Source: a virus
Virus record (IMG/VR): IMGVR_UViG_3300027868_000016
Span: 1-37,705 of that record
Direction: 5' to 3' (one strand)
DNA length: 37,705 nucleotides
In this document: in pieces, positions 1 to 19,905 of the stretch
How positions within the stretch are numbered: the stretch's first letter is position 1
Layout: every line of letters starts with the position of its first letter
The notes under the pieces: generated by a model
What the model saw: the letters and a program-made list of their open reading frames with translations, nothing else
What the model was told of the DNA's origin: nothing
The model's database searches: none
Translations under genes and position numbers: made by a program

Positions 1-3000
1 TCTTTCTCCGGGCCCACGGTGTTCAAACAGGAGATCGAGGGCGATCTGATCGACCAAATGCAACAAGAACTCGACATTGAGTTTGCCGAGGGTGACGAAG
101 TTGTTGAGCGATTCGAGTCAGCTCAGATAAATACCGATCAAGGGCGAATCCTGCGGCTGCTCGGGCCGGTGTTGTACGGCGACATGAACAAAGTTGCTGA
201 AGTCACAGTGAAAGAGCTGTTCCAAAATGCGTTTGATGCCACTCGTACCGCAATTCTGAAAGGACAGATCGAGGACGGCGAGATAACCGTCACGGCAGAT
301 GAGGATTCGCGCACGATAACGGTCACAGACAACGGCGTTGGCATGACGCCTGAAATGATCCGTACCGGCTTACTGACGATTGGTGGAACTGAAAAAGAGG
401 GAGAGATCAATTCCGGCGGGTTCGGCATTGCCAAAATGTTATTTCTTGCTGGCGCAGCATCGACAGTGATCGAAACTGTGAGGGATGGGGTCAAATCGAC
501 CTTATCGACTACGGGCGCGGCGGTGACGCTGAATGCTGATGATCCAGCAAATCCGCTTGATCCTGACCGGCCAGCGGATGAGGCCATTCGGATTCAAGAT
601 ACTACTGAGCCGAACGGCACGAAAATGACTGTCGTTATTCCCGAGAAATTCACTGATGCAAGGGATGGTGTCGAAAAAGAGATCAAATTCGTAGCCAGTT
701 ACAAGGTTAGCGACAACACGAAAGAGCAGATACTTCATCCAAATATCACCGTCAAGCGAGACACTGGTTTTGGGCCGATTACTGAAAAGTCGGGCAAGGA
801 GTTCGAGAACGAGCTATTCACCAAGATTGGCGTTATCGAGTTTGAATGGGGCACCGCTGATTTATTGGTCAGCCGTGAGAAAACCGCTGGCTACCATAGT
901 AACGCTCAGATTAGCGTCAATGGGCTAAAACAATTCGCAAAAACATTTACAAGAAACCCTTTCGAGTTGTTGGCAGCTCCAATCAAACGGACATTTGTCG
1001 TCGATATTCACCCAAATGGCGATCCCGACGATCCTAGTTACCCGTTTACGTTGGATCGTCAAGACTTAAAGCCCCATGCCAATGCCGATATGTTGGAGAT
1101 TCAGAAGTTTCTGGCAATTCGACTAGCGGCAGATATTACTCAGGAAACCGCTAAGGGCTTCGGCAACATTCAGCAGCTCAATGAAGATGGAACGATTGGC
1201 AAGATTATCGAGTTAAAGCCAAAAATTAAAGAGGGCCGCGGGCTTCTGGCTGGTGTCGATCTGGATGCGAAGCTGTCAATTATTGACGGCCGGCTGAGTC
1301 TGGACGGTAAAGAACAAAAATTTAAGCGTAAGGACTTAGGCAAAGTTCTGTTCGAGATAGATGACTTCAAGGTTGATCAAAAGACCCTGCCGCAAGACCG
1401 GCCAATTCTGCATAACTACATGGATTTTGACGGCCCGGACGGAAAGGGTGATCTGATCTCAGTGTTGTATGAACAGTTTGGCGAGGAAAAAGTCAACGGT
1501 TATTTCAAAGAGGTCGGTGACGTTTTCCTGATACTGCGGAACGCTATAGCGTCGTTCGGAGACAAAGCTCGGTTCGAGGACATCGACAACATTGGCGTAG
1601 GTGTCAGTGTGTTGGGAAATAGGTATTACGGTGTGCATACGCACGTGCCGGCGAATTTCATGCTGATAAATCCGGGCTCTGACCCTATGGGTGAGTCAGA
1701 TTCATTTGAGGATTTGGCACCGATTGAACGACATCGACTGATCGCCAGCTCAATGCTCACGACAATGGAGCATGAAGCGGCGCACTTCTCGGAATTCAGA
1801 CATGACGTGCCATTTCTTTTCGCCATGCAGGGAATTACAGCAGTAATCAGCGCCCGCATTGGGTTGCGTGATAATCTGATTTTCAAGCTCGAGAAAGCGG
1901 TAGGAGAAAACATTGACATCTACGACTTTATCAACGAACAGCTCGCTGAAGGAAATATCACAAACCGTAGCCTCTCACTTAAAGATGTCGGCGTCGAATC
2001 TGCGCGAAGCGGAGGTGATATTACTGACGATGCGGGAGAACGCGAGGCTGACACTGAATCCCGAGATACTGGTGAACGGGATGACGGAGTTGTTGGAGAG
2101 GCTACAGCTGAGCCCGGACCTGACGAGCTTTTTGCAGGAGTTAGAGCAAACGGCACAAACGTCCCGAGCGGAAGCGTAAGCCCCAAGGCTGGCGACGGCA
2201 GCCAGCTTAACAAAGTATTTCAACAGGATCGGCGTGGCGAGATCGCCTTCGATGAGGACGGAAACGGGGCCGTCATCCGGCTGACAGAAGCCGCAAACCT
2301 GTCCACCTTCCTGCACGAATCCGGGCACCTGTTCCTCGAAATGGAAAAACGGTTCTTCCTTGATCCGTCAATTCCTGACAGCGCCAAGGCTGACGGTCAG
2401 GCCATCCTGGATTGGCTGGAAGTGGATACATTCGACGACATTGAATCCGAGCACCACGAAAAATGGGCGGTCGGCTTTGAGGCTTATCTTTTCGAGGGTA
2501 ATGCTCCAAGCCTAGAACTGAAGGGCGTATTCCGTCGTTTCGCTGCGTGGCTGGCAAAGGTGTATCAGGGGCTCCGTACCCTGCAAGTGCCGCTCACGCC
2601 TGAGATTCGAGGCGTTATGGATCGAATGCTGGCTACTGACGAACAGATCGCGGAAGTCAAAGGCAAGCTGAAATTCGAGCCGTTATTCAAAACCGCTGAA
2701 GAAGCGGGGATGACGCCTGAGAAGTTCGCGGAGTACCAGAACCAGACACAAGGCACCGCCGAGGAACGGCTACGTAAAAAGGTGCTGGCACAGCTCAGGC
2801 GCACAGCTCAGAAGTGGTGGCAGGAAGAACTCGAAGCCGTCAGAGAGGGCGCGCGAGAAGAACTGGCCGCTGAGCCGCTGTACCGGGCAATCGACTTCAT
2901 GCGTCAGAAGCTGCCACCCGAGGGCTTCATTGAAAACAAGATGGATCGGCGCACCGTCTATGAGCTGCTCGGACTGGCGGTTCCGAAGGAACTGAAAAAG

Positions 3001-6000
3001 GATCGCAACGCGGTTGATCCGTCAGTCGATACGCTGTCTGAGGCAATCGCCAAGCTCGGCGGCCTGGATCGTACCGAGGCCGAGGCACAGGGCGTCGATC
3101 CTGCTCAATGGCGCAACATCAAGGTCACAAAGATCAAAGAGGGCCGGACGGTACGAGTCAGTGTGCCGAATCCTGACAATCTGCCGCTTGGTGTGGGGAA
3201 ACCGTTATTCAGAGCTACCGGCGGTCGCTCATTTGATGGGATGCGCGAGCTGTTATCCGAACTCGGCTACATGGGACAGGATGACACCGAAAGCGCCCTG
3301 CTCGACAGGCTGCTGGCTGATCTTTCCGGCGACACTCAATACTCGAACCTCGTCGATTTCGACAAACTGTTCGAGGATCCGGCCGAGGCTACAGTCGAAA
3401 AACGCAAGGCACCGGGACAGCTGCGTGGCCTGACGAAGTTCGACGGCGCGAGCCCTGACACCATTGCGACTATATTCGGCTTCCGCTCCGGGGCTGAGCT
3501 GGTGCGTCAAATTGTGGAAACGCCGACGCTGAACGAGGCTGCTGACCGGCGGGCTCAGGCCACCATGATCGAGCGACACGGTGACATCCTGAACGACGGT
3601 ACTCTGGAACGCGAAGCCTTGGAGGCTGCACACAATACCGAGCAAGGCAATCAGATTTTGACAGAGCTGCGAGCCCTGGCTGGTCAAACTGATACTGAGG
3701 TAATCAGCGACCGCAAAGCGATCAAGCTGGCAGCCGAGAAAATCATTGGCGGTATCCGTATCAGCGCCCTGCGTCCCGCCATATACCGCAACGCCGAGGT
3801 CAAAGCCGCTCAGGATGCGCGTGAGGCACAAAAGGCCGGTGATCTGGCTGGCGCCCAAGCGGCCAAGGAAAAGCAGTATCTGAATTTCCACCTGTATCGT
3901 GCGGCAATCAGAGCGCGGGACAAGGCTCAGACGTTGAAACGCCGTGGCCGGCAGATGCAAACCAAGAAGTACTCGGACAAGGAAGCTCGGCCGGAATACA
4001 TCACGCGACTGAAGCAGCTGCTGGCGGTCTATGATTTCAAACAGGCCAACAAGGAAGCCCGCGAGAATGCCGCGCTGATCCTCGAAGGCATTAAGAGCTG
4101 GTTACGGGTGCAACAGACTGATCCTGAGTCGCCGGCCAATATCGTCGAGGTCGATACGCTGGATCGTATTGTCCACTACCGCGAAATGACGATTGACCAG
4201 CTCGAAGCGGTCATGGACGTGGCGAAGTCTCTACTGCATGCAGCCCGGAAGAACAGTCAGGCCGAGCGCGAAGCGTTCAAGGAGAACATGAAGGCTATCG
4301 CGGCCAATATCGCAGAGAAGTCCACCACGACCGAATCCCTGCCCGAAGGCGACAGCCCCATGAAATCGGTGAGGGCATGGGGTCGGGCTGCTACCGCCAC
4401 TCACCGCAAAATCGAGTCTCTGGTGCGTCAAGCTGACGGCTTTGTTGACCTTGGACCGCTGTGGCGCAGGGTCATCAAGCCCTTACTGGAAGCGAACAAC
4501 AAGCGGCTTACCATGCAGCTCAAGGCGCACGATGATCTCAACGCAATATTCCTGGGTAATGAGGGGATATTCAATGCACGTCACCGCCACCTGAGTTTCA
4601 CGTTCTCGGACGGTCGCAGCGTCAGTTACAGCCTGAACACTCGCATTGCTATCGCGCTGAATTGGGGCAATCTCGGCAACCGTGAGGCCATGCTGAATCA
4701 GGAGCATGTCGCCTTCACTGAGGAAGATATACAGCAAGTCCTGGACAGCTTGACCGACACCGATTGGGATTTGGTCGAATCAGTGTGGGACTACGTTGAC
4801 TCATTCTGGCCGCAGATAGCGGAGCTGGAAAAGTCATTTACTGGTGTGGTGCCTCGCAAGGTCGATGCCGAGCCATTCCAGACAAAGGACGGCCGCACGA
4901 TCAAAGGCGGCTACTATCCGCTGGTGACTGATGCGCGGCTCAGTTTCCGTGGCCGGCAGGAGGAAATAGAAAAACGAGCTGAACGGCTGCGAGCTGGCGG
5001 GGTGACGCGAGCGACGACGGCGCAAGGCCATACTATCGAGCGGGTAGGATTCAACGGCCGGGACGTTGATCTGTCAATAAATGTCTTGTTCAACCACGTC
5101 GATAACGTGATCCACGATATCAGCCATAGACGCGCTGTAAGCGATTCTGACGGCGTTTTGCGCAACAAGGACATCCGTAAGGCTCTGATCGCTTCCATCG
5201 GCCAGAGCAACTACAGCACGATGCTGGCACGCGTTACGGAGGTTGCGGCCGGTTTCATTCATCCGAACGAATTGGGGGCCATCGAACGCGGCCTCAGATG
5301 GGCTCGGCTGGCGCTGACGTATTCGGCGCTCGGATTCTCCATGAAGTCGGGATTCTCGCAAATGCTTGGCACCGCGACGGCCAGTGCGGAATTTGGCGCT
5401 GCGAACGTCGCTCGGGGATTCATGGATTTCTACAGCGATCCGGTCAAACACGCCGAGTTTATCAACGAGAAGTCGGTATTTATGCGCGACCGGCTGCACA
5501 CTCAGAACCGAGATACCGGCACCATATTGCGGAACCTGAAGGGCAAAACGGCATGGAACGGGCTCAGAGAACGCGCCTTTTTCTTCCTGCTGCAAGGCGA
5601 TTTAGTGGTATCCAGGGCCGTGTGGTGGATGGCCTACAATGACGGCATGGAACGTGCCGCTGATCCGAACAATACCGAGTTCGACACAGAGAATGACGCA
5701 ATCAATTTTGCCGATCGCTCGGTGTCCAGAACGCAGCAGTCCGGTCTGCTCATGGACTTGACGGCGGTGGAGAGTAAGAACGAGTTTGTCAAATTGTGGA
5801 CGGTGATGTATTCAGCGTTCTCAGCGATCTATCAGATTGCCGTCGAACAAACGAAGAAGTACCAGCTCGGCAGAATCAACGCGGTTGAGCTGACATACAA
5901 TATCGTTTGGCTGCTGGTGATCCCCGCGCTATTCGAGGAACTACTGACCGGCCGGGATGAGGATGACGATGAGGACGAACTGCTTGACTTGGTAAACAAT

Positions 6001-6327
6001 CGCTGGACGCGCTCAGTAGCAGCGTTCTCGCTCGGTACAATGGCTTTTATCCGTGAAATCGGGTGGGCCATGAGAACCGGACAGACCAGTGAGTTACCAT
6101 TGCAGCGTGTACTGAGTACGCCGATAGATTTGGCGACACAGATCGAACAAGGTGAATTGGATGCAGCGGCGATCAGATCAGCGACAGCTGTATTGGGTGC
6201 CCTGCATATACCCGGTGGCAGCCAGCTCAATAGATCGTTAAATTACTGGCTGGCATATGAAGAAGGCGACGAGGAATATTTCGACATTTGGGAGTTCCTG
6301 ATTACCGGGCCGAGAGAGGACGAATAA
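1..6327 (+). CDS. Giant polyvalent virion protein with GHKL ATPase and two HExxH motifs (5' partial)
   Basis: The reading frame is open from base 1, and the first possible start (GTG at 19) has no ribosome-binding site, so the true N-terminus is outside the window; 2102 residues follow from 19. Residue numbers count from that GTG. Near the N-terminus are the Bergerat/GHKL ATPase motifs: N-box ELFQNAFDA (66-74), DNGVGM (104-109) and glycine lid GGFGIAKM (133-140), the order seen in Hsp90/histidine-kinase-type ATPases. Two zincin-type motifs follow, HEAAH (585-589) and HESGH (766-770). The middle is charged and helical. From about residue 1760 (RWARLALTYSALGFSM) the protein resembles the C-terminal domain common in phage large polyvalent proteins (LPD38-like, from memory), with a hydrophobic stretch near 1955-1976 followed by an acidic run. 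Such proteins are packaged and delivered with the DNA; enzymatic activity is inferred. Its stop overlaps the next start by one base. Confidence 0.8.
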   Translation, partial: SFSGPTVFKQEIEGDLIDQMQQELDIEFAEGDEVVERFESAQINTDQGRILRLLGPVLYGDMNKVAEVTVKELFQNAFDATRTAILKGQIEDGEITVTADEDSRTITVTDNGVGMTPEMIRTGLLTIGGTEKEGEINSGGFGIAKMLFLAGAASTVIETVRDGVKSTLSTTGAAVTLNADDPANPLDPDRPADEAIRIQDTTEPNGTKMTVVIPEKFTDARDGVEKEIKFVASYKVSDNTKEQILHPNITVKRDTGFGPITEKSGKEFENELFTKIGVIEFEWGTADLLVSREKTAGYHSNAQISVNGLKQFAKTFTRNPFELLAAPIKRTFVVDIHPNGDPDDPSYPFTLDRQDLKPHANADMLEIQKFLAIRLAADITQETAKGFGNIQQLNEDGTIGKIIELKPKIKEGRGLLAGVDLDAKLSIIDGRLSLDGKEQKFKRKDLGKVLFEIDDFKVDQKTLPQDRPILHNYMDFDGPDGKGDLISVLYEQFGEEKVNGYFKEVGDVFLILRNAIASFGDKARFEDIDNIGVGVSVLGNRYYGVHTHVPANFMLINPGSDPMGESDSFEDLAPIERHRLIASSMLTTMEHEAAHFSEFRHDVPFLFAMQGITAVISARIGLRDNLIFKLEKAVGENIDIYDFINEQLAEGNITNRSLSLKDVGVESARSGGDITDDAGEREADTESRDTGERDDGVVGEATAEPGPDELFAGVRANGTNVPSGSVSPKAGDGSQLNKVFQQDRRGEIAFDEDGNGAVIRLTEAANLSTFLHESGHLFLEMEKRFFLDPSIPDSAKADGQAILDWLEVDTFDDIESEHHEKWAVGFEAYLFEGNAPSLELKGVFRRFAAWLAKVYQGLRTLQVPLTPEIRGVMDRMLATDEQIAEVKGKLKFEPLFKTAEEAGMTPEKFAEYQNQTQGTAEERLRKKVLAQLRRTAQKWWQEELEAVREGAREELAAEPLYRAIDFMRQKLPPEGFIENKMDRRTVYELLGLAVPKELKKDRNAVDPSVDTLSEAIAKLGGLDRTEAEAQGVDPAQWRNIKVTKIKEGRTVRVSVPNPDNLPLGVGKPLFRATGGRSFDGMRELLSELGYMGQDDTESALLDRLLADLSGDTQYSNLVDFDKLFEDPAEATVEKRKAPGQLRGLTKFDGASPDTIATIFGFRSGAELVRQIVETPTLNEAADRRAQATMIERHGDILNDGTLEREALEAAHNTEQGNQILTELRALAGQTDTEVISDRKAIKLAAEKIIGGIRISALRPAIYRNAEVKAAQDAREAQKAGDLAGAQAAKEKQYLNFHLYRAAIRARDKAQTLKRRGRQMQTKKYSDKEARPEYITRLKQLLAVYDFKQANKEARENAALILEGIKSWLRVQQTDPESPANIVEVDTLDRIVHYREMTIDQLEAVMDVAKSLLHAARKNSQAEREAFKENMKAIAANIAEKSTTTESLPEGDSPMKSVRAWGRAATATHRKIESLVRQADGFVDLGPLWRRVIKPLLEANNKRLTMQLKAHDDLNAIFLGNEGIFNARHRHLSFTFSDGRSVSYSLNTRIAIALNWGNLGNREAMLNQEHVAFTEEDIQQVLDSLTDTDWDLVESVWDYVDSFWPQIAELEKSFTGVVPRKVDAEPFQTKDGRTIKGGYYPLVTDARLSFRGRQEEIEKRAERLRAGGVTRATTAQGHTIERVGFNGRDVDLSINVLFNHVDNVIHDISHRRAVSDSDGVLRNKDIRKALIASIGQSNYSTMLARVTEVAAGFIHPNELGAIERGLRWARLALTYSALGFSMKSGFSQMLGTATASAEFGAANVARGFMDFYSDPVKHAEFINEKSVFMRDRLHTQNRDTGTILRNLKGKTAWNGLRERAFFFLLQGDLVVSRAVWWMAYNDGMERAADPNNTEFDTENDAINFADRSVSRTQQSGLLMDLTAVESKNEFVKLWTVMYSAFSAIYQIAVEQTKKYQLGRINAVELTYNIVWLLVIPALFEELLTGRDEDDDEDELLDLVNNRWTRSVAAFSLGTMAFIREIGWAMRTGQTSELPLQRVLSTPIDLATQIEQGELDAAAIRSATAVLGALHIPGGSQLNRSLNYWLAYEEGDEEYFDIWEFLITGPREDE
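1274..1288. promoter_or_regulatory. Dispersed palindrome site 1 (TGTCAA-TTA-TTGACG)
   Basis: Copy of the dispersed palindrome GTCAA-N3-TTGAC, with one outer-base mismatch to TGTCAA-N3-TTGACA. It lies inside the giant virion gene, between the ATPase motifs and the first HExxH motif. The function is unknown; see the finding on the dispersed palindrome. Confidence 0.5.
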
Positions 6328-7298
6328 TGACTATCAGCACATTGGTTATACAGTCCGGGCCGTACGCTGGCACTGGCACAACGGACACATTTGCCTACAC
6401 GTTTCGCATCCTCGCAAAAGAGGATTTGGTTGTCGTCGAAACGGACTCGCTCGGCGTTAAAACGACGCTGGTAGTCGATACCGATTACACCGTGACCGGT
6501 GTTGGTGCTGATGCCGGCGGCAACGCGGTGCGGGTAGCCGGCAATCTGCCGACCGGCTCGACGTGGCTAATTACTCGAGACACGCCTCAGACACAGACGA
6601 TTGATTACGGCTCTCAAGCCGCATTCCTACCGCAAACGTGGGAGGACGGTCTTGACAAACTGACGATGCAGGTTCAGGAAGCGGCCGAGGATCTGAAGCG
6701 GGCAATAAAGAGCCCAACAACCGAGGTCACCGTGGACTTACTGTTGCCGTTGGTGGCATCCCGCGCAAGTCAGCTGTTGGAATTTGACGCAGCTGGCTTA
6801 CCAGTGACAAACATCAACGCTATAGCGGCAGCCGCAGCCGTGAGTTCGGCACTGGCGACCGGTGTTGCGATCTCAGCCGATACGTTCACAGGTGACGGCA
6901 CTACGACAGCGTTTGTCATTAGCGTAGCCGCGGCAGCTGTGAACGGTCTGCTGATTACCATAGATGGTGTCGTTCAGCAGCCAACTGCGGATTACACGCT
7001 GGCCGGCACGACAGTCACATTCACCACGGCACCGATCAATCTGACTAAGATCGTGATACGAAACCTTGGCAACGCCAGCAGCGTTATTAACGTCAATCAA
7101 CGCGGTCAGGAAACGCTTGCCATTGGTACAGCAATCGTGACGCTGCCAATTACGCCGCCGGATGCAAACTACCGAGTGGCATTAGGTGGCGACTCGAACG
7201 AGACATTTTTTTGGTCAGGGAAATCGACCACTGGTTTTACGATAAATAGCTCTAACGCTGGCAGTACCGCGAAGGTCGATTGGCTAGTAGCTCATTGA
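6327..7298 (+). CDS. Tail fibre protein with T7 gp17-like N-terminal adaptor
   Basis: 323 residues. The start is ATG 6327, sharing one base with the preceding TAA. Residues 1-130 follow the pattern of the T7 gp17 N-terminal particle-binding domain: a Y-T-F-R strand (24-27), LVVVETD (34-40), DTDYTV (51-56), the L-I-T-R-D-T strand (81-86), TIDY (91-94), and an amphipathic helix ending in QVQEAAEDLKRAIK. Residues of about 190-255 form a second beta-rich module, starting FTGDGTTTAFV and ending in a V-I-R-N-L-G strand, of a kind recurrent in phage appendage proteins. The first domain should dock the fibre on the tail; receptor-binding parts are probably supplied by the following genes. Assignment is by pattern recognition of the family; the C-terminal half is not specifically identified. 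Confidence 0.75.
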   Translation: MTISTLVIQSGPYAGTGTTDTFAYTFRILAKEDLVVVETDSLGVKTTLVVDTDYTVTGVGADAGGNAVRVAGNLPTGSTWLITRDTPQTQTIDYGSQAAFLPQTWEDGLDKLTMQVQEAAEDLKRAIKSPTTEVTVDLLLPLVASRASQLLEFDAAGLPVTNINAIAAAAAVSSALATGVAISADTFTGDGTTTAFVISVAAAAVNGLLITIDGVVQQPTADYTLAGTTVTFTTAPINLTKIVIRNLGNASSVINVNQRGQETLAIGTAIVTLPITPPDANYRVALGGDSNETFFWSGKSTTGFTINSSNAGSTAKVDWLVAH

Positions 7299-7307
7299 GG
7301 AACTGAC

Positions 7308-8252: not shown

Positions 8253-8579
8253 GTGGCGACCAAGCGAGGCATCCACGGCCAAGCGGCTCCAAGTTCCGCG
8301 GTACTGACAGATATTTATACGGTGGGGGGCGCGAAGAACGCCACTGTCAGAGTCATTATCAGCAATCGTTCGGCCACGGCGACATCGTTCAGGGTAGGGG
8401 TGGCTCCCGGTGCCGAGGCTGATAACGTGAAACACTATATTGCTTACGATACACCGATTGCTGGTAACGACACCGGCTCTACGGTGCCATTCATGGTCGA
8501 TGCTGGCGACGTGATTCGTGTTGAGGCTGCGATTGGCAGTCTTAGTTTTGTCGTGACCGGCTTGGAACAAGATGCATGA
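8253..8579 (+). CDS. Small beta-rich virion accessory protein
   Basis: 108 residues starting at GTG 8253, 1 bp after the previous stop; the stop overlaps the next gene in an ATGA junction. The sequence reads as a single beta sandwich: LTDIYTV, then ATVRVIISNR, FRVGVAPG, a HYIAYDTPI strand and a final FVVTGLEQD. Short proteins of this pattern (a V-x-V-x-x-x-N-R strand followed by FR-V-x-V-x-P-G) are frequent in phage tail-fibre regions. I do not know a defined function. There is no signal peptide, zinc motif or catalytic motif. Its tight coupling to the beta-helix gene suggests co-assembly or a stoichiometric relation. Confidence 0.55.
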   Translation: MATKRGIHGQAAPSSAVLTDIYTVGGAKNATVRVIISNRSATATSFRVGVAPGAEADNVKHYIAYDTPIAGNDTGSTVPFMVDAGDVIRVEAAIGSLSFVVTGLEQDA

Positions 8580-11500
8580 GTTTCATATTAGGCGCAGCTG
8601 GTGGTGTCATTCAGGAAGTGGTCGCGCCACCGCCGGAAACCGCTGATTGGTTTGTATCTAAAACAGGCAATGACGCTAATGGGGGTCAGGCGTCGAACGA
8701 TCCATTTTTGACAATCGGCAAGGCTGTTTCGGTAGTGTCGGCCGGCGAAGTCATCGAGGTGGCAGCTGGCCGCTATGACGAAAAAATAGAGCCAACTACC
8801 AGCGGCACAGATGGTAATGAGATAACCCTTCGCAGCAAACCCGGTGACGCTGTTCGAGTAGTCGCTTCGGGCGAGGCGACAGAAGTCGGCACGTTAGAAT
8901 TTAACGGGCTGAGCTATTGGATTGTGCATGGTGATCCAGCTGACCGCACTCTGCTGAAATTAGGTGACGCTGACTTGACGTGGATTCACGCTGACGGTGG
9001 CCGCTCGGTGACATCGGATGGCAATGTCCATTACATAAACAATACGAATCACATTGATGTGCGGGACGCCACTATTTACGGCGGTCGCAGCCTTGGTGCT
9101 AGTCACCTGAATTGGATGAAACTCGGTTCCCACACGTACCGATTTCTACGAATCAACTGGTTGTTCGGTGGCGATAACAATGACCCTTTGCAAGTCCCAC
9201 CGGCTGAGCGTGGTGATCTGTTTTTTTCGCAGGGCCATACCTGTCTTGTCGACGACTGTACGTTCAAATGGGGCGGCCACGATAACTTCATATTTCACGG
9301 TGAAAATTCCGTCATGCGGAATTGCGACGTTGACGGCGATTGGACGGACTTAGCTACCGGTCAGCCAGGGCAACGACTTGGCTCGTTCTCGACAGCGCGG
9401 GATGATCGTGCCGACGCTCCTTGGGGCCCCGGCATGATTGAGGGTTGCACATTACGTCGCGCCAATGCATCGGGTGATTTGAACGATCAGAACGGCCACA
9501 AGTTTACCGGTGACGGTATTATTTCGCGCCTTAATTATTATTGGGACAACAGGGCTGAGATCATTTCCAGCAGCCCGGTAACTGGTCAAATACTTCAGCC
9601 AAATTCACACCAGAAAAATCGCATTTACCACAACACCGCGTTTAATAACGGTGGTTTTCTACGTGTGAGAGACACCAATCCAGAAACGGTCTTGCACAAA
9701 GAGTATGGGATTAAAAATAATATCAGCGTCAGCATGACCGGTGCGAGCCGCGAGCAAGATGGCGTACATACGTATTGGGACATGACCTCAATCGACCCGC
9801 AAGGCTATCCAGACAACCACATTGGTGCCGAGATCACCGGTAATGTATTTCACGCTACGGGGACAGATTATCAATTCAGGCTGTTGAACTCGGCCACGCT
9901 CTACAACGTGTCAGAAGCGCAGGCCACCTTTCCGTTAGTGTGGTCAGGAAACATAGAAGCAGCTCCCGTTTTTGTTGATGCTGCTGCGAGGACGAAAGCC
10001 GGGTTTAAGCTGGCAAGCGGTAGTGCCGGTGTTAGTGACGCTCAGCCCCTTACCACAATCACAAGCGGATCGAGCGGCAGCGTGCTGACCGTTGGGAGTC
10101 CAGAATATTTCTACGACGGCTTCAACCTCGCGTATTTCGGAGAAGATCAGAAAACCGATTTCATCAAGATAGTGCCGGCGGGGCAAGACCCCGTAACTAA
10201 CGGCAGTATCGTCCGTGTTGCCTATCAGGGCAGGAACGATGCACTCAAGCAACTGACAATCACTACAACGCTGACTGTGATTAACGGGGATGAGATTTAT
10301 TTGGTACTGCAAGATGGCACGACGGTCTGCACTCATTCCGGGGCCGATCAAAACCCGGTGGCGGTTGCTGATTGGTTTGTATCCAAGTCTGGAAGCGATA
10401 CAAACGATGGTCTGACAGAGGGCACCGCGTTTCTAACTATCAGCAAGGCGGTCACTGTCGTATCGGCTGGCGAAATAATCGAAGTCTCAACTGGTCGCTA
10501 TGACGAAACGATTTCACCGGCCGTCAACGGCACAGACGGTAACGAGATAACTTTGCAGGCGAAGCCAGGGGCTCAGGTCCGAATCTCTGCTCTGCTGGAC
10601 GGCGATACTCTCGACTTCGATGGGGTTTCCTACTGGATCGTTAAAGACATTGACGACATTGGCGACGGCGATCTGACGTGGACGCAGGCCAGTGCCGGTA
10701 AGGATGTGACCGCACGTCGCAACATCAATTTTGGTGAGACAACATCGACTCACCATATCGACATTCAAAATTGCTACATTTGGGGTGGATCAGGGCAAGC
10801 CGGCGCGCAGGATCATTGCAATCGAATCTATCGAGTCTGTCACAATATTCGTTTTCTTGACTGCACGCTTGATCTGGCCGGCACTAATAACGATTTGGGC
10901 CTCGGCATAGATTACGGCGACCTCATGCAATCGCGCGGAACCAGCGTCATCTATGAAAATTGTACGATTAGCCACGGCGGTCACGACACGCTCAGGTTAT
11001 TCGGTGCGAAAAGCGTCGTCAGGAATTGTGTTCTTGACGGTAGTTGGGTTGGTAAGGGAACTGGATTCGATGGCTCTCGCTGCATGGCGCTGGCTGCTGG
11101 TGACGCAAGGGGCGCGGCACCTTGGGGCCCACAGCTCGCTGAGAATAATATTTTCAAAAACGCGAACGCCTCGGTTGATTCAGCATTGCAACGCTGCATC
11201 CAGGTAGAGGGCGACGGCCTGATTTTGCGGAGCAATTATTTTTGGGACAATCACGCGGAGATATTGTCAACGGCAATCCTTAATCCGGGCGCTGCGTTCA
11301 GTACGCAGAAGCACAGAATTTATAACAATACGGCGTTCAACAATGGCAACTGGCTGCGCGTTCGAGACACCGATGCACAAAAAGACCTGTACCTAGATCA
11401 TCATTATTTCAACAATATCTCGGTGGACATGACAGGCACATCGAATGAACAGACAGGCGTCCACGTCTATTTCGACGCCAGCACCATCAACGCTCAAGGT

Positions 11501-12052
11501 CAACCGGACAACTGGATCGGGGCTGTGTGGGCCGGCAATATGTTCAAGGACATATCGGCGGCGGTGCAGATACGCCTTCTCAATGGCACGACCTTGTATG
11601 ACGTGGCCGAGGCTGAGACTAATTTCGCACTGGTCTGGACGATTGGCAACACGGAAGAAAATCCGACGTTCGTCGATAGCTCAAGCCGAACGAAAGCCGG
11701 CTTTGCGCTCACCGGGGGTAGTGCAGGGGTCGGTGCAGCTCAGCCAATAACGCACGTCACAAGCGGATCGAGCGGAGCTGTTGTGACGCTGGATGACGTG
11801 CTGTGGATATACGACGGCTTCGATCTGATTTACTTCGGAGAGGATCAGAAAACGGACTACATCAAGATAGTGCCGACTGGATTAGACCCTGCTGCGAATG
11901 GTACGGTTGTTCGAGTAACGTATCAGGGCCGCAACGATGGACTTTCTCAAGTGACCATAGATCAAAGCCTGGTGGTGACGGCCGGTGATGACGTGTATCC
12001 GGTATCGCAGAACGGCGTGACAGTTTGGGACAACAAAGGGGCCGCACAGTAA
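8576..12052 (+). CDS. Tailspike-like protein with two tandem right-handed beta-helix units
   Basis: 1158 residues, ATGA-coupled to the previous gene. Two homologous units follow each other: unit 1 starts at residue 23 (ADWFVSKTGND) and unit 2 at residue 598 (ADWFVSKSGSD), a period of 575 residues. Each begins with the DUF1565/pectate-lyase-like N-terminal cap: a WFVSK strand, N-D-G, F-L-T-I-x-K-A-V, SAGE-x-I-E-V and G-R-Y-D-E. Each continues with N- and D-rich beta-helix turns such as the HNIRF, YENC and VVRNC type, and each closes with a small domain containing YDGF, YFGEDQKTD and YQGRND. The fold suggests a carbohydrate-binding or depolymerising spike, but no catalytic residues can be assigned by eye. 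Phage tailspikes usually carry one such unit per chain, so the internal duplication is unusual. Confidence 0.75.
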   Translation: MSFILGAAGGVIQEVVAPPPETADWFVSKTGNDANGGQASNDPFLTIGKAVSVVSAGEVIEVAAGRYDEKIEPTTSGTDGNEITLRSKPGDAVRVVASGEATEVGTLEFNGLSYWIVHGDPADRTLLKLGDADLTWIHADGGRSVTSDGNVHYINNTNHIDVRDATIYGGRSLGASHLNWMKLGSHTYRFLRINWLFGGDNNDPLQVPPAERGDLFFSQGHTCLVDDCTFKWGGHDNFIFHGENSVMRNCDVDGDWTDLATGQPGQRLGSFSTARDDRADAPWGPGMIEGCTLRRANASGDLNDQNGHKFTGDGIISRLNYYWDNRAEIISSSPVTGQILQPNSHQKNRIYHNTAFNNGGFLRVRDTNPETVLHKEYGIKNNISVSMTGASREQDGVHTYWDMTSIDPQGYPDNHIGAEITGNVFHATGTDYQFRLLNSATLYNVSEAQATFPLVWSGNIEAAPVFVDAAARTKAGFKLASGSAGVSDAQPLTTITSGSSGSVLTVGSPEYFYDGFNLAYFGEDQKTDFIKIVPAGQDPVTNGSIVRVAYQGRNDALKQLTITTTLTVINGDEIYLVLQDGTTVCTHSGADQNPVAVADWFVSKSGSDTNDGLTEGTAFLTISKAVTVVSAGEIIEVSTGRYDETISPAVNGTDGNEITLQAKPGAQVRISALLDGDTLDFDGVSYWIVKDIDDIGDGDLTWTQASAGKDVTARRNINFGETTSTHHIDIQNCYIWGGSGQAGAQDHCNRIYRVCHNIRFLDCTLDLAGTNNDLGLGIDYGDLMQSRGTSVIYENCTISHGGHDTLRLFGAKSVVRNCVLDGSWVGKGTGFDGSRCMALAAGDARGAAPWGPQLAENNIFKNANASVDSALQRCIQVEGDGLILRSNYFWDNHAEILSTAILNPGAAFSTQKHRIYNNTAFNNGNWLRVRDTDAQKDLYLDHHYFNNISVDMTGTSNEQTGVHVYFDASTINAQGQPDNWIGAVWAGNMFKDISAAVQIRLLNGTTLYDVAEAETNFALVWTIGNTEENPTFVDSSSRTKAGFALTGGSAGVGAAQPITHVTSGSSGAVVTLDDVLWIYDGFDLIYFGEDQKTDYIKIVPTGLDPAANGTVVRVTYQGRNDGLSQVTIDQSLVVTAGDDVYPVSQNGVTVWDNKGAAQ
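8642..12052 (+). repeat. 1725-bp tandem duplication inside the beta-helix gene
   Basis: Copy 1 runs from 8642 to about 10366 and copy 2 from 10367 to the end of the gene. The copies align over their whole length at protein level, including the N-terminal cap, the W-G-G-H-D turn, the YYWDN/YFWDN segment, the FNNG(G/N)(F/W)LRVRDT segment and the C-terminal YFGEDQKTD domain. Their DNA has diverged with many synonymous and non-synonymous changes, so the duplication is old rather than an assembly error. Confidence 0.8.
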
Positions 12053-14274: not shown

Positions 14275-14469
14275 ATGGCAAACCCGACACTCGCTGAGCT
14301 GAAGGCTGAACAGGACAAATTAAACGCTCTGTTCCTGAAGAATCAGGCTGCCTTTTTCGAGGCTCAAAAAATCCACAACGCCACAAAGCGGAAGCTGACC
14401 GAGTTCAATGACAGATACGGTCGGGCGCTGAAGTTGTTTACGGAGGTGAGTGATGGCTCTGGCTCTTGA
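14275..14469 (+). CDS. Small coiled-coil protein
   Basis: 64 residues from ATG 14275. Residues of about 5-55 are a continuous amphipathic helix with heptad-like hydrophobic spacing (LAELKAEQDKLNALFLKN and onward), then a short polar tail. The final 17 bases overlap the next gene. No family is recognised. A short helical protein of this kind in an appendage gene cluster could be an oligomerisation adaptor or an assembly chaperone for the adjacent fibre proteins; that is inference. Confidence 0.45.
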   Translation: MANPTLAELKAEQDKLNALFLKNQAAFFEAQKIHNATKRKLTEFNDRYGRALKLFTEVSDGSGS

Positions 14470-14833
14470 AGTAGGTTTACAGAACGCACTCGCTGACGAG
14501 ATTGACAATTTCGTAAATGCGGGCACGGCCCCGGAGCTGGTATTCGAGACATCGGGTGATGTAGCAGTCGCCACGATCATAATGAATGCCACTAATGCCT
14601 TCGGCGCGGCTGCCGCGGGCGTCATCACAATGCAGGATCAGCCGCTCTCAGATACTAATGCGACCGGCGGCGTTGTTGCTCAGTTCTCCATCTATCAGAA
14701 TGTAACGCAGACCAACAAGGTTCTCGAAGGCACAGTGCTGACATCCGGTGGCGACATCAACCTGAGTTCACTGACGGTTGGTGCCACAGATACGGTTGAA
14801 CTGACTACGTTCACGATCACTGTACCTGCTTAA
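14453..14833 (+). CDS. Hypothetical virion protein
   Basis: 126 residues. I prefer ATG 14453 over GTG 14450 because GGAGG at 14442-14446 then has six bases of spacing. It overlaps the previous gene by 17 bases. The N-terminus is helical (ALEVGLQNALADEIDNFV), followed by a beta-rich domain with strands such as VAVATIIMNAT, VVAQFSIYQ and a final VELTTFTITVPA. This resembles small decoration or stopper-type phage proteins only in a general way; no specific family is claimed. Confidence 0.5.
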   Translation: MALALEVGLQNALADEIDNFVNAGTAPELVFETSGDVAVATIIMNATNAFGAAAAGVITMQDQPLSDTNATGGVVAQFSIYQNVTQTNKVLEGTVLTSGGDINLSSLTVGATDTVELTTFTITVPA

Positions 14834-14845
14834 TGGCGGCCCGCC

Positions 14846-16099
14846 GTGGCCGACGTTTGGTATAGAACGGGCACATTTTTAACGCCGGCTTCCGGCACTA
14901 CAGTCATATCCACGCCTGACAATCCCAAGGCGATTCACGTCTGGTTTACTGACGCTAATGCAAATGACACCAACGAAGTCGGCAACAGCTTTGGTCATGG
15001 TTTCGGTGATGGCACCGACGAAATTTCATGTGCCATTGCGGCCCAGGACGGTGCTACCGATACGCGGCGACACGGTATCGGCACCGTTGGCGGCACCGGC
15101 AATCTGATCGGCATACTTGATCCAGCGGCTGACCTGTCGGCCGGCTCGGGAACACTCAAGGTCATTGCGACGACGGCGGCAATGAACGCCTCGGATATTA
15201 CGATCAGTTATTCGACGTTCACCGCCAATATAATCATTCATTACGAGTGTTGGGGCGGCACAGACGTAAACGCCAATCTGTTTGAAATGCCCGATGTCGG
15301 TTCAGCGTCAAGTCCTGACGCTCATGGTCTGAGCAATAAACCAGATTTGGTGATGTTTGTCACAAACGGTCAGGCGCATCCCGCCAACTCCATTCATGCG
15401 TATATGTCGTTCGGTATCGCTCACGATAACGGCGCGTCAATAGATCAATGGGCCTTGTTCAGTTATCTCGGTGACACCGGCATTGGTGACGGACAGGGTT
15501 CGGGTCTTGCGCCGGGATTAAATGCTGGTCAGTACAACATCGACTTCACCAACTGGACGAACACGATCACGGTCATTGATGCGACGAACATCGAGTGGAC
15601 TTCGACTGGTAGTGGCACGACCGATGACATGCTGGTGCTGGCTCTCGACCTCGGCGGTATCGGTGTCGATGTCGGCACGTTCACCAAGTCAACGGGTGGG
15701 GCTCCTGTCTCTCAGTCTTTACCAGACCTCGGCTTTACGCCGCAGGGTTATCACCTGGCGACCGCCAACAAGACTGTGACCACGATCACAGCTGATGACT
15801 CTACCGAGGCATTCCACGGTGCTGTCGATGAAAGCAATAATAGCGGCCACTGTTGCGGCATGGTTGGTGTAACTCAGGCTGATCGAAACAGCCGGTCGAA
15901 GGCAAACGATATTCTATTCGCTGCTGAGGGCTTGGACGGTGGGGTTGATTTCTCCGGGACTCACGCAACGATTAACGACTCGACGCCGAGCATCGAGTGG
16001 AATCCAAATACGGCGGTGGCCTGTCACATTGGGTACTACGCGTTTGAGACTCAGGCGGCACCGGAACTGTCAGCTCACGGTATGGTAGTGGTGCATTGA
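14846..16099 (+). CDS. Virion appendage protein with C-terminal ELSAHGMVVVH
   Basis: 417 residues from GTG 14846. The nearby ATG at 14833 is in another frame and stops after a few codons. Two jelly-roll-like halves can be seen, with strands such as PKAIHVWFTDA and PDLVMFVTNG. A central segment has SFGIAHDNG, and a second pattern starts at GYHLATANK. The extreme C-terminus, ELSAHGMVVVH, is nearly identical to that of the following gene and related to that of the gene at 12052, suggesting a shared docking or trimerisation strand. No catalytic motif was found. It is probably a repeated appendage subunit; the exact role is unknown. Confidence 0.55.
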   Translation: MADVWYRTGTFLTPASGTTVISTPDNPKAIHVWFTDANANDTNEVGNSFGHGFGDGTDEISCAIAAQDGATDTRRHGIGTVGGTGNLIGILDPAADLSAGSGTLKVIATTAAMNASDITISYSTFTANIIIHYECWGGTDVNANLFEMPDVGSASSPDAHGLSNKPDLVMFVTNGQAHPANSIHAYMSFGIAHDNGASIDQWALFSYLGDTGIGDGQGSGLAPGLNAGQYNIDFTNWTNTITVIDATNIEWTSTGSGTTDDMLVLALDLGGIGVDVGTFTKSTGGAPVSQSLPDLGFTPQGYHLATANKTVTTITADDSTEAFHGAVDESNNSGHCCGMVGVTQADRNSRSKANDILFAAEGLDGGVDFSGTHATINDSTPSIEWNPNTAVACHIGYYAFETQAAPELSAHGMVVVH

Positions 16100-17539
16100 A
16101 TGGCTGTCCTTGGTCGATGGTCAGGCGGTGCCACAACCCTGATTCCTGGGACAACTTTCGCTGCCCCTAACGCGCTGTTTCCTACTCAAGATCGTAATGA
16201 CGGCTCGGCCTATACATTCACGTCCAGTACGTCGGTGCTGACGCTGCCGAGTACTGATCTGGCGAACGGTTATCTGATGATCGCCAGAGTTCACTACGGC
16301 GATACCAGTAATGGTCGGTTCAGTTTTGCGGGTCGATTCCAACAGACCGGCGGGACAGGGGATTTCGTCAATCTGCAAACTGGTGGCTACAGCCGGAACA
16401 CATCCGACAATGAAACGTATTTGTGTGCAATGGGATTCGTCAACAATCCGTCTGCCAGCGCCACATTTGCCTTTCAGTGGGAGCGCGAGTCGGACGCGCC
16501 GACCGGGGGCACCGTGAAGTCCTCACTGGATGTCATTCCGATGTTCTACAGCAATCACGGCATTTACAACGGAAGCAATCTGTCACTCATGGGTGGCACG
16601 ACTCGCAATGTTGTGCCTATCGGTTCGACCATAGCTGAATCGGATACCGGTGCAATCGAGCGTGTGACGAATGTCGTTACGGTCAAGGGCGACAACAAGC
16701 GGTACATGGTGATGTCCTCTCAGTGGTATCAAAACCGTGGCGAGCCGGGGACAACCCGAACGCAACGCATCTTCGGTCACGACTATGACGGCTCGGCAGA
16801 TCTGGCAGCACAGTCCTACGCTTACTACCGGCAGGCGACGGCCGACGGTACTGGCGGGTGCATTCACGACCTGATCGAAACGGTTACTGCGGATCGAACC
16901 ATTGAAATGACCTGTTTTCGTGGGCTCGGAATCTCTAACGGTCAGGGTGGTGCTGACGTGGACGGTCAAGCTCCGACGCAGGGTGTCCAGGCGCTTGTTG
17001 TTCTGGAATTGAACGATGAGGCAGAGGTATTCCGAAGGCACGATGCGACAGGCTTGCAGGCTTTCGATGCAGCCTCACCGCCGCACGATCTGAATGCTCT
17101 GAGGACGAATGATTTTACTGATTCAGCGTCTTGGGTGGTGGTTGGCACAGTCGGCATGGAGAACAATACGGGTGCGGCGATAGATGCTTTGACCGGCGCG
17201 AACGTATGGGCGGCATCTACTGACGTTACAAGTGGGACGCGCGGGACTTATGAGGGCCGAATCACTGTTGATGGCACAGAGGACGGTGACATTTTTCATG
17301 GCAATTATATACGAGGTAATCAGGGTGGTGAGGATACGTTCGGCCTAGCGTTTAATCCGGTTGGCTTTGTCGCATTGGCAGACAATGGCGATTTGGGTGT
17401 ATCGGTTTCACAAACGGGCTCGCTTCACGCGGTAGACACTCAAGCTGACACCGTTGGAATGTGGGGGATCAATCTTGATACGATGGAGCCAGCGGGTGTC
17501 GCTGAACTGTCAGCGCAAGGAATGGTAGTGATTCACTAA
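16100..17539 (+). CDS. Virion appendage protein with C-terminal ELSAQGMVVIH
   Basis: 479 residues. ATG 16100 follows the preceding TGA immediately. It is beta-rich throughout: an N-terminal domain with LFPTQDRNDGSAYTF and MIARVHYGDTSNGRF, a central domain with RYMVMSSQWYQNRGE and IEMTCFRGLGI, and a C-terminal domain with SWVVVGTVGMENNTG. The last eleven residues match those of the gene at 14846 apart from H/Q and V/I differences. These two proteins and the protein at 12052 probably belong to one appendage family that diverged in the body and kept a common C-terminal tag. Confidence 0.55.
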   Translation: MAVLGRWSGGATTLIPGTTFAAPNALFPTQDRNDGSAYTFTSSTSVLTLPSTDLANGYLMIARVHYGDTSNGRFSFAGRFQQTGGTGDFVNLQTGGYSRNTSDNETYLCAMGFVNNPSASATFAFQWERESDAPTGGTVKSSLDVIPMFYSNHGIYNGSNLSLMGGTTRNVVPIGSTIAESDTGAIERVTNVVTVKGDNKRYMVMSSQWYQNRGEPGTTRTQRIFGHDYDGSADLAAQSYAYYRQATADGTGGCIHDLIETVTADRTIEMTCFRGLGISNGQGGADVDGQAPTQGVQALVVLELNDEAEVFRRHDATGLQAFDAASPPHDLNALRTNDFTDSASWVVVGTVGMENNTGAAIDALTGANVWAASTDVTSGTRGTYEGRITVDGTEDGDIFHGNYIRGNQGGEDTFGLAFNPVGFVALADNGDLGVSVSQTGSLHAVDTQADTVGMWGINLDTMEPAGVAELSAQGMVVIH

Positions 17540-19905
17540 TGGCTATCTCGTCAGGCTTCAGTTATCAGTCAACGCGCGGCATAGCGACCGGTGTCATTGC
17601 TGCGTCATTCTTGTTCGGCGGGGTCATCCCGCAAAAATTCACAGGTGACGGATCGCCTTCGATAACCAAGCCCACATCGGCCGGCACCGCGGAGATCATC
17701 AAGACAGCGACTGGATCGCCGTCGATCACTAAGCCTACGAGCGCCGGCAATGCGGAGATAATCAAGCCATCATCCGGGGCTCCGTCGATCACCAAGCCTA
17801 CGGCGGCTGGTGTAGCGGAGATAATCAAAACCTCGTCGGGGGCACCGTCGATAACTAAGCCGACCTCGGCCGGCACAGCGGAGATCATCAAGACTGCTTC
17901 GGGCAGTCCATCCATCACTAAGCCGACCTCGGCCGGCACCGCCAGCCTGATCGGGGCTACCCCGCAAGGCAAGCAGCTCGTTACGCAAGCGACGCGCAAG
18001 GCTGAGCCGCCAGCGTCATTCCTACTTGGCACTAATCTCGCTATTGAGGTAGTCCTTGAGCGTGGTGGCCTGCATGTTGGCAGCGCACGTCACAGTGATG
18101 GCGTACAGGCGCTGCAAGGCGTAATGCGGGACATCGTACCGGCTAACGTGTTCACCGCTACAGGCGCACCGTCAATTACCAAGCCGACCTCGGCGGGTAC
18201 TGCCGAGATCATAAAGACCAGCTCGGGCGCTCCGTCGATCACGAAGCCCACAGCTGCTGGCGCTGCCGAGATCATAAAGACAGCTACCGGTGCGCCGTCG
18301 ATTACCAAGCCCACGTCTGCCGGCACTGGCAGCGTTACGCAGATACCCCGCGGTAAGGCACTTATTCAACAGGCTGCCGAGCACAAGGCCGAACCAGCAG
18401 CGTCATTCACGCTCAATAGCCTGCTCTCAGTGGCGCTCACGGCCAGCGGATCGCCGTCGATCACGAAACCAACAGCCGCTGGCACAGCTGAGATCATCAA
18501 GCCGGCTACGGGTGCGCCGTCGATCACGAAACCGACTGCGGCGGGTACTGCTGAAGTAATCAAAGCCGGTACTGGTGGGCCGTCCATCACCAAGCCCACG
18601 GCCGCTGGCGCTGCGGAAATAATCAAGACCGGCTCGGGCGCACCGTCGATTACAAAACCGACTTCAGCCGGCACTGGCAGCGTCGTCGGCATACCGCGTG
18701 GCCAGAGCATCATCCAGCCGGCGGTGGCACGTCGAGCTGAGCCGCCAGCGTCGTTTGTTCACAACTTTAATGGCATTCAGCTGTTACCTGGGGCCGGTGG
18801 GCCGTCCATCACCAAGCCCACGTCTGCCGGTACGGCTGAAATCATAAAGACCGCCTCGGGCGCTCCGTCGATTACCAAGCCGACCTCGGCCGGCAGCGCC
18901 AGCCTGCTCGGTAACTTCCCGATTTCCCAGGGAGCCATGCTTATTGTTCAGGCTGCGCCGATACCGCGGGCTCATGTTTGGTTGCGGGACACAGTACCGC
19001 CGGCCGGCTTGTTCACCGCTACAGGCTCGCCGTCGATCACCAAGCCGACAGCTGCCGGTGCTGCTGAGATCATAAAGACTGCCAGCGGTAGTCCGTCCAT
19101 TACGAAGCCGACAGCTGCCGGTGCGGCCGAGATCGTCAAGACTGCTACGGGTAGTCCGTCAATCACCAAGCCTACGGCAGCCGGGACAGCAGAAGTAATC
19201 AAGCCGAGTACAGGTGGGCCGTCGATAACCAAGCCGACAGCTGCCGGCTCCGCTGAAATAATTAAGACCGCCAGTGGCTCGCCGTCGATCACCAAGCCGA
19301 CCTCGGCCGGTACTGGCTCAGTTAGCAGCGCGTTGGATTTGCCGCAAACGATAATACTGATCGCGTCGGCAGCTCAGGATCGTTTGCAGGGATCACCGCC
19401 GGCCAGCCTGCTGCGTCATTTATTGCCACCGCCTGACGTTGCACCGCCACTAGATAATCCAACTGGCGGCCTGACGGTTGGCTCCGCGCAGCATCGTGCC
19501 GCCTTTGTCCTGGGTCAGTCACTCACGCAAGGGTCGATCACTCGGGATGCTGAAAGGTCGGTTCGATATATTTCCATCACGACCACAGAGCCGGTATCGC
19601 GTGTGCCGCGCTCATTCCTTGTTGGCACTGTCCCGCCACCGGATATACGGGCCGAGCTGTATCGACGCATTATTGTCCAAGCAGAGCCAATCGCTCTGAC
19701 GCCGCCGGTCAGCGTTCTGGTGTCGATTGTTACGCCGCCGGACATACAGGCCGAGCTGTATCGCAATATCATTCACACCGCTGCACCGCTCACGTTGCAG
19801 ACGCCGCAGAGCTGGTTTGTTGATACGGTGCCGCCTGACGATGTAATCTTTGTACCGATAGCCGATCCGTTTACCGGGCGGCACATAACGCCGACCGTCG
19901 ATTAA
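17539..19905 (+). CDS. Repeat protein with nineteen PSITKPT-type 21-residue repeats
   Basis: 788 residues, coupled to the previous gene (its ATG shares a base with TAA). After a short N-terminus comes a 21-residue repeat with core PSITKPT(S/A)AG, then AEIIK and a short T/S/G linker. There are nineteen copies in five blocks of 5, 3, 4, 2 and 5. The blocks are separated by related linkers containing a P-x-G-x-x-L-I-x-Q-A-A pattern, then AEPPASF. The C-terminal 170 residues hold a different repeat around VPPPDIRAELYR. Long stretches of alternating beta and proline residues fit an extended fibre or surface decoration. I know PSITKPT-like repeats only as phage or bacterial low-complexity segments without assigned function. 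It is the last gene before lysis. Confidence 0.6.
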   Translation: MAISSGFSYQSTRGIATGVIAASFLFGGVIPQKFTGDGSPSITKPTSAGTAEIIKTATGSPSITKPTSAGNAEIIKPSSGAPSITKPTAAGVAEIIKTSSGAPSITKPTSAGTAEIIKTASGSPSITKPTSAGTASLIGATPQGKQLVTQATRKAEPPASFLLGTNLAIEVVLERGGLHVGSARHSDGVQALQGVMRDIVPANVFTATGAPSITKPTSAGTAEIIKTSSGAPSITKPTAAGAAEIIKTATGAPSITKPTSAGTGSVTQIPRGKALIQQAAEHKAEPAASFTLNSLLSVALTASGSPSITKPTAAGTAEIIKPATGAPSITKPTAAGTAEVIKAGTGGPSITKPTAAGAAEIIKTGSGAPSITKPTSAGTGSVVGIPRGQSIIQPAVARRAEPPASFVHNFNGIQLLPGAGGPSITKPTSAGTAEIIKTASGAPSITKPTSAGSASLLGNFPISQGAMLIVQAAPIPRAHVWLRDTVPPAGLFTATGSPSITKPTAAGAAEIIKTASGSPSITKPTAAGAAEIVKTATGSPSITKPTAAGTAEVIKPSTGGPSITKPTAAGSAEIIKTASGSPSITKPTSAGTGSVSSALDLPQTIILIASAAQDRLQGSPPASLLRHLLPPPDVAPPLDNPTGGLTVGSAQHRAAFVLGQSLTQGSITRDAERSVRYISITTTEPVSRVPRSFLVGTVPPPDIRAELYRRIIVQAEPIALTPPVSVLVSIVTPPDIQAELYRNIIHTAAPLTLQTPQSWFVDTVPPDDVIFVPIADPFTGRHITPTVD
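17653..19329 (+). repeat. Nineteen 63-bp coding repeats in five blocks
   Basis: The blocks are at about 17653-17955 (5 units), 18166-18342 (3), 18451-18690 (4), 18799-18912 (2) and 19027-19329 (5). The last unit in each block is shortened or altered after the AG residue pair. Protein sequence is strongly kept while codons vary between copies (for example the Ser-Ile-Thr codons). The repeats are therefore maintained by selection on the protein and not by very recent DNA expansion. Confidence 0.85.

Follow-up and report, generated by a model that had tools for sequence, protein, structure and literature searches.

Garlands around tail fibers have been described in two contractile-tailed phages of Agrobacterium. 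In phage 7-7-1, whose tail-fiber model is PDB 9RKV, the garland protein is gp014, 36 homodimeric proteins being placed round the distal fibers; the virion also bears flexible capsid fibers, to which the structure paper (PMC12796354) assigns no protein. The garland dimers of phage Milano are likened to the connectors T4 gp8 and A511 gp105, those of A511 being arranged as beads on a string; the paper names gp126 as a possible string of the garland without settling on one, and leaves some density unassigned (PMC10811340). A second point of comparison is Bordetella phage BPP-1, in which the giant gene bbp10 is followed by bbp9 (fiber), mtd, avd and brt and, further on, by the endolysin gene bbp2. 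In Cobetia phage Carin1 the gene following the bbp10 homologue encodes the depolymerase Dpo31.

The window (the whole stretch of DNA analyzed here, a 37,705-base virus record from IMG/VR) has elements of both: a homologue of bbp10, a small virion protein that is garland-like by sequence profile (hereafter the partner) and, past two intervening genes, a gene for a protein built of 21-residue repeats.

Genome neighborhood of the repeat gene

The principal genes are:

19..6327, + strand: giant virion gene, homologue of bbp10 of Bordetella phage BPP-1 (phrog_9880), 2,102-residue ORF
6288..7298, + strand: T7-type tail-fiber N-terminal anchor protein, start of the tail-fiber cluster
8576-12052: beta-helix protein with two DUF1565 stretches
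14450..14833, + strand: partner, small virion protein of 127 aa, phrog_3758 family, garland-like by profile
14846..16099, + strand: intervening gene, 417 aa, no family match
16100..17539, + strand: intervening gene, 479 aa, no family match
17539..19905, + strand: repeat protein gene (ORF), 788 codons, 788 aa
19916..20374, + strand: M15 peptidase endolysin, with which the lysis genes begin

The repeat gene sits between the bbp10-like gene plus fiber anchor and the endolysin, in the order fiber anchor, beta-helix protein, smaller genes, partner, two genes, repeat gene, M15 endolysin. The contig begins at or within the bbp10-like gene, the ORF of which is matched by 45 cultured records; the homologous giant gene of BPP-1 is 31% identical over 85% of the query, and its place ahead of the lysis genes is also shared. 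The window phage looks short-tailed and BPP-1-like, whereas garlands are known from the contractile-tailed 7-7-1 and Milano.

Where the window has the stretch with the repeat gene, BPP-1 has its diversity-generating retroelement and Mtd. No reverse transcriptase – the neighbor by which an Mtd-like retroelement target would be recognized – was found near the repeat gene in the one record (0/1, compared to 3/14 control rings; the record is possibly incomplete). In the BPP-1 stretch, none of the ORFs shows a period of 21 residues. The slot of the repeat gene is that of bbp9–mtd in BPP-1 and of Dpo31 in Carin1, which speaks for a role in attachment.

Several proteins of this neighborhood have features of their own. 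The bbp10-like protein matches histidine-kinase/HSP90-like ATPases close to the N terminus (residues 61-167, E 1.8e-7), the beta-helix protein (8576-12052) reads as two similar halves of ~570 residues each, and the two genes preceding the repeat gene (14846-17539) encode near-identical C-terminal peptides (ELSAHGMVVVH and ELSAQGMVVIH). The BPP-1 tail-fiber protein bbp9 (L031 17845-19398) has a strong 10-residue period (z 12.1).

Organization of the array and selection on its units

The initial annotation described nineteen 21-residue PSITKPT units in five blocks, each closed by an altered unit, and this description was confirmed for 19 of 19. The repeat ORF, whose ATG overlaps the stop codon of the gene before it, contains 19 units of 21 residues with PSITKPT in every one; unit starts (the Gly preceding S/A/G-PSITKPT) run from 17650 to 19276, and the final unit ends at 19338. 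The blocks hold 5, 3, 4, 2 and 5 units, the spacing within them being exactly 21 residues in 14/14 cases. The 14 full units follow the pattern G(S/A/G)PSITKPT(S/A)AG-x-AE(I/V)(I/V)K-x-x-x; the 5 block-final units, or closers, are altered from residue 14 onward (AEIIK to ASL or GSV). The 21-residue periodicity is far from chance: self-match of the repeat ORF gives z = 21.5 (computed on L034, from the same virus population), and Tandem Repeats Finder reports a period of 63 in the DNA. The parts of the array are:

17650..17964, + strand: block 1, 5 units, the final one a closer
17941..18162, + strand: linker S2 between blocks 1 and 2, including the altered end of the closer (shuffle test)
18163..18351, + strand: block 2, 3 units, the final one a closer
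18328..18447, + strand: linker S3 (shuffle test)
18448..18699, + strand: block 3, 4 units, the final one a closer
18676..18795, + strand: linker S4 (shuffle test)
18796..18921, + strand: block 4, 2 units, the final one a closer
18898..19023, + strand: linker S5 (shuffle test)
19024..19338, + strand: block 5, 5 units, the final one a closer
19315..19902, + strand: C-terminal region, 196 aa, with one or more additional, degenerate copies of the linker element

As judged by alignment scores, the inter-block segments are repeats of each other: the scores of S2-S3, S2-S4, S2-S5, S2-C and S3-S4 were reached by 0/300 shuffles. The modular character claimed for the protein is thus upheld and extends to a second level of modules, the mutual repetition of these segments having been overlooked. 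In another phage (L013) the segments preceding blocks 1 and 2 are related to each other, in L016 several linkers are mutually related, and in L083 arrays and mutually similar linkers are likewise evident by eye: together with the window, these indicate that arrays are joined by within-protein homologous linkers in several phages. Likeness of linkers between phages was found for S5 alone, which resembles two L016 linkers (0/300 shuffles), and homology of linkers between phages is not claimed.

The units, almost identical in protein and differing in codons, were said to be kept so by long-standing selection on the protein. The counts bear this out. The 14 full units give a dS of 1.86 and a dN of 0.13 (ratio 0.072), and pN exceeds pS in 0/91 pairs; when all 19 units are compared over their first 13 codons, dN/dS is 0.080, with pN above pS in 0/171 pairs. 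Over the last 8 codons of the closers the ratio is 0.835, and pN exceeds pS in 5/10 pairs. L002, another assembly of the window's population, differs from the window at 3 of 12,594 aligned bases: all three differences (18750, 19383, 19389) fall within the repeat gene – 19% of the stretch aligned – and all are synonymous, the expected synonymous share of random point changes in this gene being ~28%. Purifying selection acts on the units at the protein level.

Gene conversion or recent tandem duplication, rather than selection, might also produce units as alike as these, whose mean protein identity (0.85 over 14 residues) is the highest of 13 loci compared (others 0.51-0.77); pN/pS in the window, 0.16, is the lowest of the 13. 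Such an origin is nonetheless extremely improbable given the state of the synonymous sites. Codon identity between units is 0.44, close to that of random draws (0.40 from the units' own usage, 0.31 from phage-wide usage), which places synonymous sites near saturation. Adjacent units share synonymous codons at 0.433 compared to 0.442 in column shuffles, a value equal to or above that observed being reached by 1267/2000 shuffles: neighbors are no more alike than distant units, and no sign of duplication or conversion in the recent past is seen. As recent events, both processes are refuted, and the units are old.

The further claim, that length varies by gain and loss of units, holds only over long divergence, unit number among relatives ranging from 1 (L018) to 46 (L005), but finds no counterpart in recent duplication within the window. 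Unit number is the same in two pairs of relatives: L017 and L022 (75% protein identity) have 22 units each, with two 23-residue spacings at matching places, and L011 and L012 (98%) have 17 each. In the alignment of L083 with L096 (73% identity) there are many gaps, the longest of 62 residues.

The unit family and its linkage to a garland-like partner

Neither the window repeat protein nor the repeats of its relatives match a curated family (Pfam, PHROGs). Scans of IMG/VR found the unit in 15 other contigs, re-fetched loci being merged and the window's own population excluded. A profile recovered 227 units over 11 proteins (the window's and 10 others), spaced by 21 and less often by 23 residues, with conserved Gly1 (99%), Pro3 (93%), Pro8 (79%), Thr9 (86%), Gly12 (96%), Ala14 (86%) and Ala20 (71%); position 5 is I or V in 83%. 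The window shows the family pattern G1, P3, P8-T9, G12, A14, A20 at 21-residue spacing. Repeat windows were aligned non-overlapping; sliding windows fell out of register.

Two variations of the array were seen among the relatives. In L004, L005 and L011 the arrays are interrupted by a common insert of ~64 residues (WPKVYLNT...GATEMTVTA...), giving spacings of 87-88, and in L013 (5539-7245) a single protein combines the array with a tail-terminator domain (phrog_179, E 1.8e-14).

When the window, L003 and L016 repeat proteins were searched against those of cultured phages, no match was returned, a result in which low-complexity filtering may mask true matches. The matches of two other relatives were taken as chance (L028: only tape-measure and tail proteins, E 0.03 or worse; L029: a single match, E 4), as were weak unit-profile matches to designed Pizza beta-propellers (best E 0.023); the match of L013 is due to its C-terminal tail-terminator-like domain. 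In bacterial/archaeal genome scans, which are of limited sensitivity and do not imply absence from prophages, 0/69 and 0/345 pattern matches were confirmed. A hydrophobic C-terminal peptide seemingly common to repeat proteins was dropped (7/306 downstream compared to 5/355 upstream ORFs), as was a second C-terminal pattern (2/306 compared to 1/355). Literature searches on 21-residue phage repeats, tail-fiber repeat number and beta-solenoid tail fibers yielded no relevant paper.

The partner belongs to a family with described members. The family phrog_3758 ('virion structural protein') is matched by 42 of 48 partner relatives at E 0.001 or better and, weakly, by the window partner itself (E 0.0021). 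A profile of the 48 members matches PDB 9rkv_A (E 5.9e-5), the 9rkv_A residues printed by HMMER being those of 7-7-1 gp014; searched against the 7-7-1 genome it finds gp012 (E 2e-13) and gp014 (E 2e-6), and hhalign of the partner with gp012 gives a probability of 72 (E 3.5e-5). A match to PDB 44nx (E 0.0099), to which no identity is attached, was set aside.

The partner precedes the repeat gene in the same orientation in L013, L025, L023, L026, L021 and L028; with a weaker match in L029 (E 6e-11) it is present in 7/15 unit-bearing contigs. For five of the other eight (L003, L008, L012, L014, L022) the fetched contig starts within the repeat ORF. The partner was not found in the 2.3 and 1.8 kb upstream that L011 and L005/L024 hold, nor in the stretch searched (L030) around the single-unit gene of L018, the contig of which carries a partner-and-repeat pair elsewhere (L042).

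A scan of IMG/VR with the partner alignment confirmed 132 loci, the best 80 of which were used to survey linkage. Tandem units were detected by the unit profile in 18 of these 80, always downstream and on the same strand. A test blind to the unit (self-match at lags 10-60, z >= 6) identified 115 of the 2,893 ORFs in the same 80 loci, and for 107 the best lag is 20-23 or 42-44; the 107 include 56 antisense frames, and some frames overlap on the same DNA. Linkage was counted for same-strand ORFs within 4.5 kb that have a period of 20-23 (or double), in loci with at least 4 kb downstream. Among the best 80 of 132 loci, a periodic protein is found downstream of the partner in 33/56 (30/51 after dereplication, and 23/43 when loci known for repeats are also removed) compared to 1/56 upstream (1/52 and 1/45, respectively); residue-shuffled controls gave 0. 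Partner and repeat protein are thus linked over many phages. The period is absent from 21/51 dereplicated loci (again from the best 80 of 132), and the partner can therefore occur without a recognizable repeat protein.

The linkage lies outside the stretch described by the initial annotation and is of more interest than the repeats alone: the unit has no Pfam or PHROGs model, yet in over half of the testable loci proteins of the same period trail a single small virion protein. The pairing provides a handle on proteins that are now annotated as hypothetical. In Vibrio phages K354 and 501E54-1 the gene following the partner has period 21 (z 12.8 and 9.7). In Sphingopyxis phage VSN-002 (L115, MZ127829.1) the partner is followed by an open frame of 489 codons (5953-7419) that has no annotation in the record; the frame is glycine-rich and then has a 23-residue period (z 8.7). 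The sole upstream same-strand ORF in the period class (L112; lag 44, z 6.8) has 1,546 residues and spans 5201 to 564 bases upstream of its partner.

The described garland phages show a similar arrangement: in 7-7-1 and Milano a small garland-type protein near the tail-fiber gene is followed by structural proteins. Two and three genes past gp012 of 7-7-1, gp010 and gp009 have a best lag of 21 (z 5.8 and 5.4), the value for gp010 falling under the survey cut-off of 6. The 2012 virion mass-spectrometry table (PMC3517404) lists proteins of 14,237, 14,221, 52,046 and 37,504 Da, which agree within 20 Da with the computed masses of gp014, gp012, gp011 and gp010. The last, called gp108 in that paper, was seen with 3 unique spectra and 13.5% coverage; the computed mass of gp010 being 37,522, gp010 was thus detected in 7-7-1 virions; gp009 is absent from the table. 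In Milano, Milano_002 has a best lag of 41 (z 5.3) and Milano_003 of 21 (z 4.4); Milano_001 and Milano_002 are virion-associated according to the record. Profile comparison of the window unit with 7-7-1 gp010 or the K354 protein detected no homology, and common descent of the three repeats is therefore not claimed: position and period alone tie the window unit to them. With this reservation, a module of garland-type virion protein and 21-23-residue repeat protein recurs over many phages.

Function and fold of the array

The explanation to which we lend somewhat more belief than doubt is that the repeat protein acts in the virion as a fiber-like attachment protein, together with a garland-type connector, in a short-tailed, BPP-1-like phage. 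A role in the receptor-binding complex at the tail is likely. In that complex, at the tip of the tail, the connector would hold the repeat protein, and the array would space or present the binding parts. We infer that the protein is present in the window virion, that it contacts the partner, that it contributes to host attachment and that it has a fold of the kind outlined below. The occurrence of similar repeat proteins beside a garland-like protein in many unrelated phages suggests an overlooked two-part attachment device.

An alternative, which we consider unlikely, gives the array a more direct part in the garland: it would be a chain threaded with garland-type dimers, each unit or block docking one, and the units would stay identical because each is a docking site. 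This would suit the strong gene linkage, the near-identity of units at near-saturated synonymous sites and the weakness of single-chain AlphaFold2 models, as well as the likeness of Milano garland dimers to connectors (T4 gp8, A511 gp105) aligned on an extended chain, for which the Milano authors could not name the string (PMC10811340). However, the same authors name gp126 as a possible string, 21/51 partner loci lack a recognizable repeat protein and the units of relatives are less uniform than those of the window.

A broader version – that phages of different tail types share a two-gene device, a phrog_3758 dimer threaded on a string of 21-23-residue repeats – is speculative and on balance improbable. 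If true, how long the garland is and how far it reaches would depend on the numbers of units and blocks; the device would explain the density left unassigned at the Milano garland edge and supply a candidate for the flexible fibers of 7-7-1. In the cryo-EM maps of 7-7-1 and Milano, relatives of the partner are visible and parts of the garland and capsid fibers remain unassigned, which makes this reading checkable on existing maps; gp009-gp013 are not mentioned in the 7-7-1 structure paper (PMC12796354).

The same flexible capsid fibers, to which that paper assigns no protein, raise the further alternative that the array is a capsid-anchored flexible head fiber and not a tail-tip part, and some relatives of the repeat gene do adjoin terminase, portal or scaffold genes. 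The fiber and garland genes of 7-7-1 are, however, also near terminase and portal, so that location is no argument for the head; in the window the neighbors are tail-fiber and lysis genes, and the solved relative of the partner is at the tail. We regard a head fiber as decidedly improbable.

On the favored reading, a fiber-like attachment protein, each 21-residue unit probably contributes a single turn or hairpin to an extended beta structure, and arrays of 2-5 identical turns joined by the homologous linker element would form a jointed, fiber-like rod. Short two-strand repeats build a thin rod in the triple beta-spiral shafts of adenovirus, in which the repeat is shorter than that of the window and has another motif. 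The extended structure proposed at the outset is plausible, and the predicted fold of a block lends it little weight: AlphaFold2 gives pLDDT 45 and pTM 0.31 for a window block and pLDDT 56 and pTM 0.50 for seven units of L017, the latter with one regular long strand per unit. The low value for the window block, with a composition rich in Pro, Thr, Ser and Ala, could also be expected of a tether that has no fold of its own. Position-specific conservation over 227 units and the fixed 21-residue spacing argue against an unfolded spacer, as does the strand that both low-confidence models place around residues 13-19 of every unit, and we think it unlikely.

Foldseek searches of PDB or BFVD gave no match at E 0.001 (first row E 0.22), and no sequence relation was found between the unit and right-handed beta-solenoid proteins. 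Among Foldseek's own 123 chains, the low-confidence L017 model superimposes on the beta-solenoid 1rwr with Z 11.1 (rmsd 2.8, 138 residues aligned); on 2odl the values are Z 9.9 (rmsd 2.5, 143 aligned) and on 3ljy Z 8.6 (rmsd 2.8, 130 aligned). A right-handed beta-solenoid of the kind seen in PDB 1rwr, 2odl and 3ljy is a lead suggested by the models, not a result.
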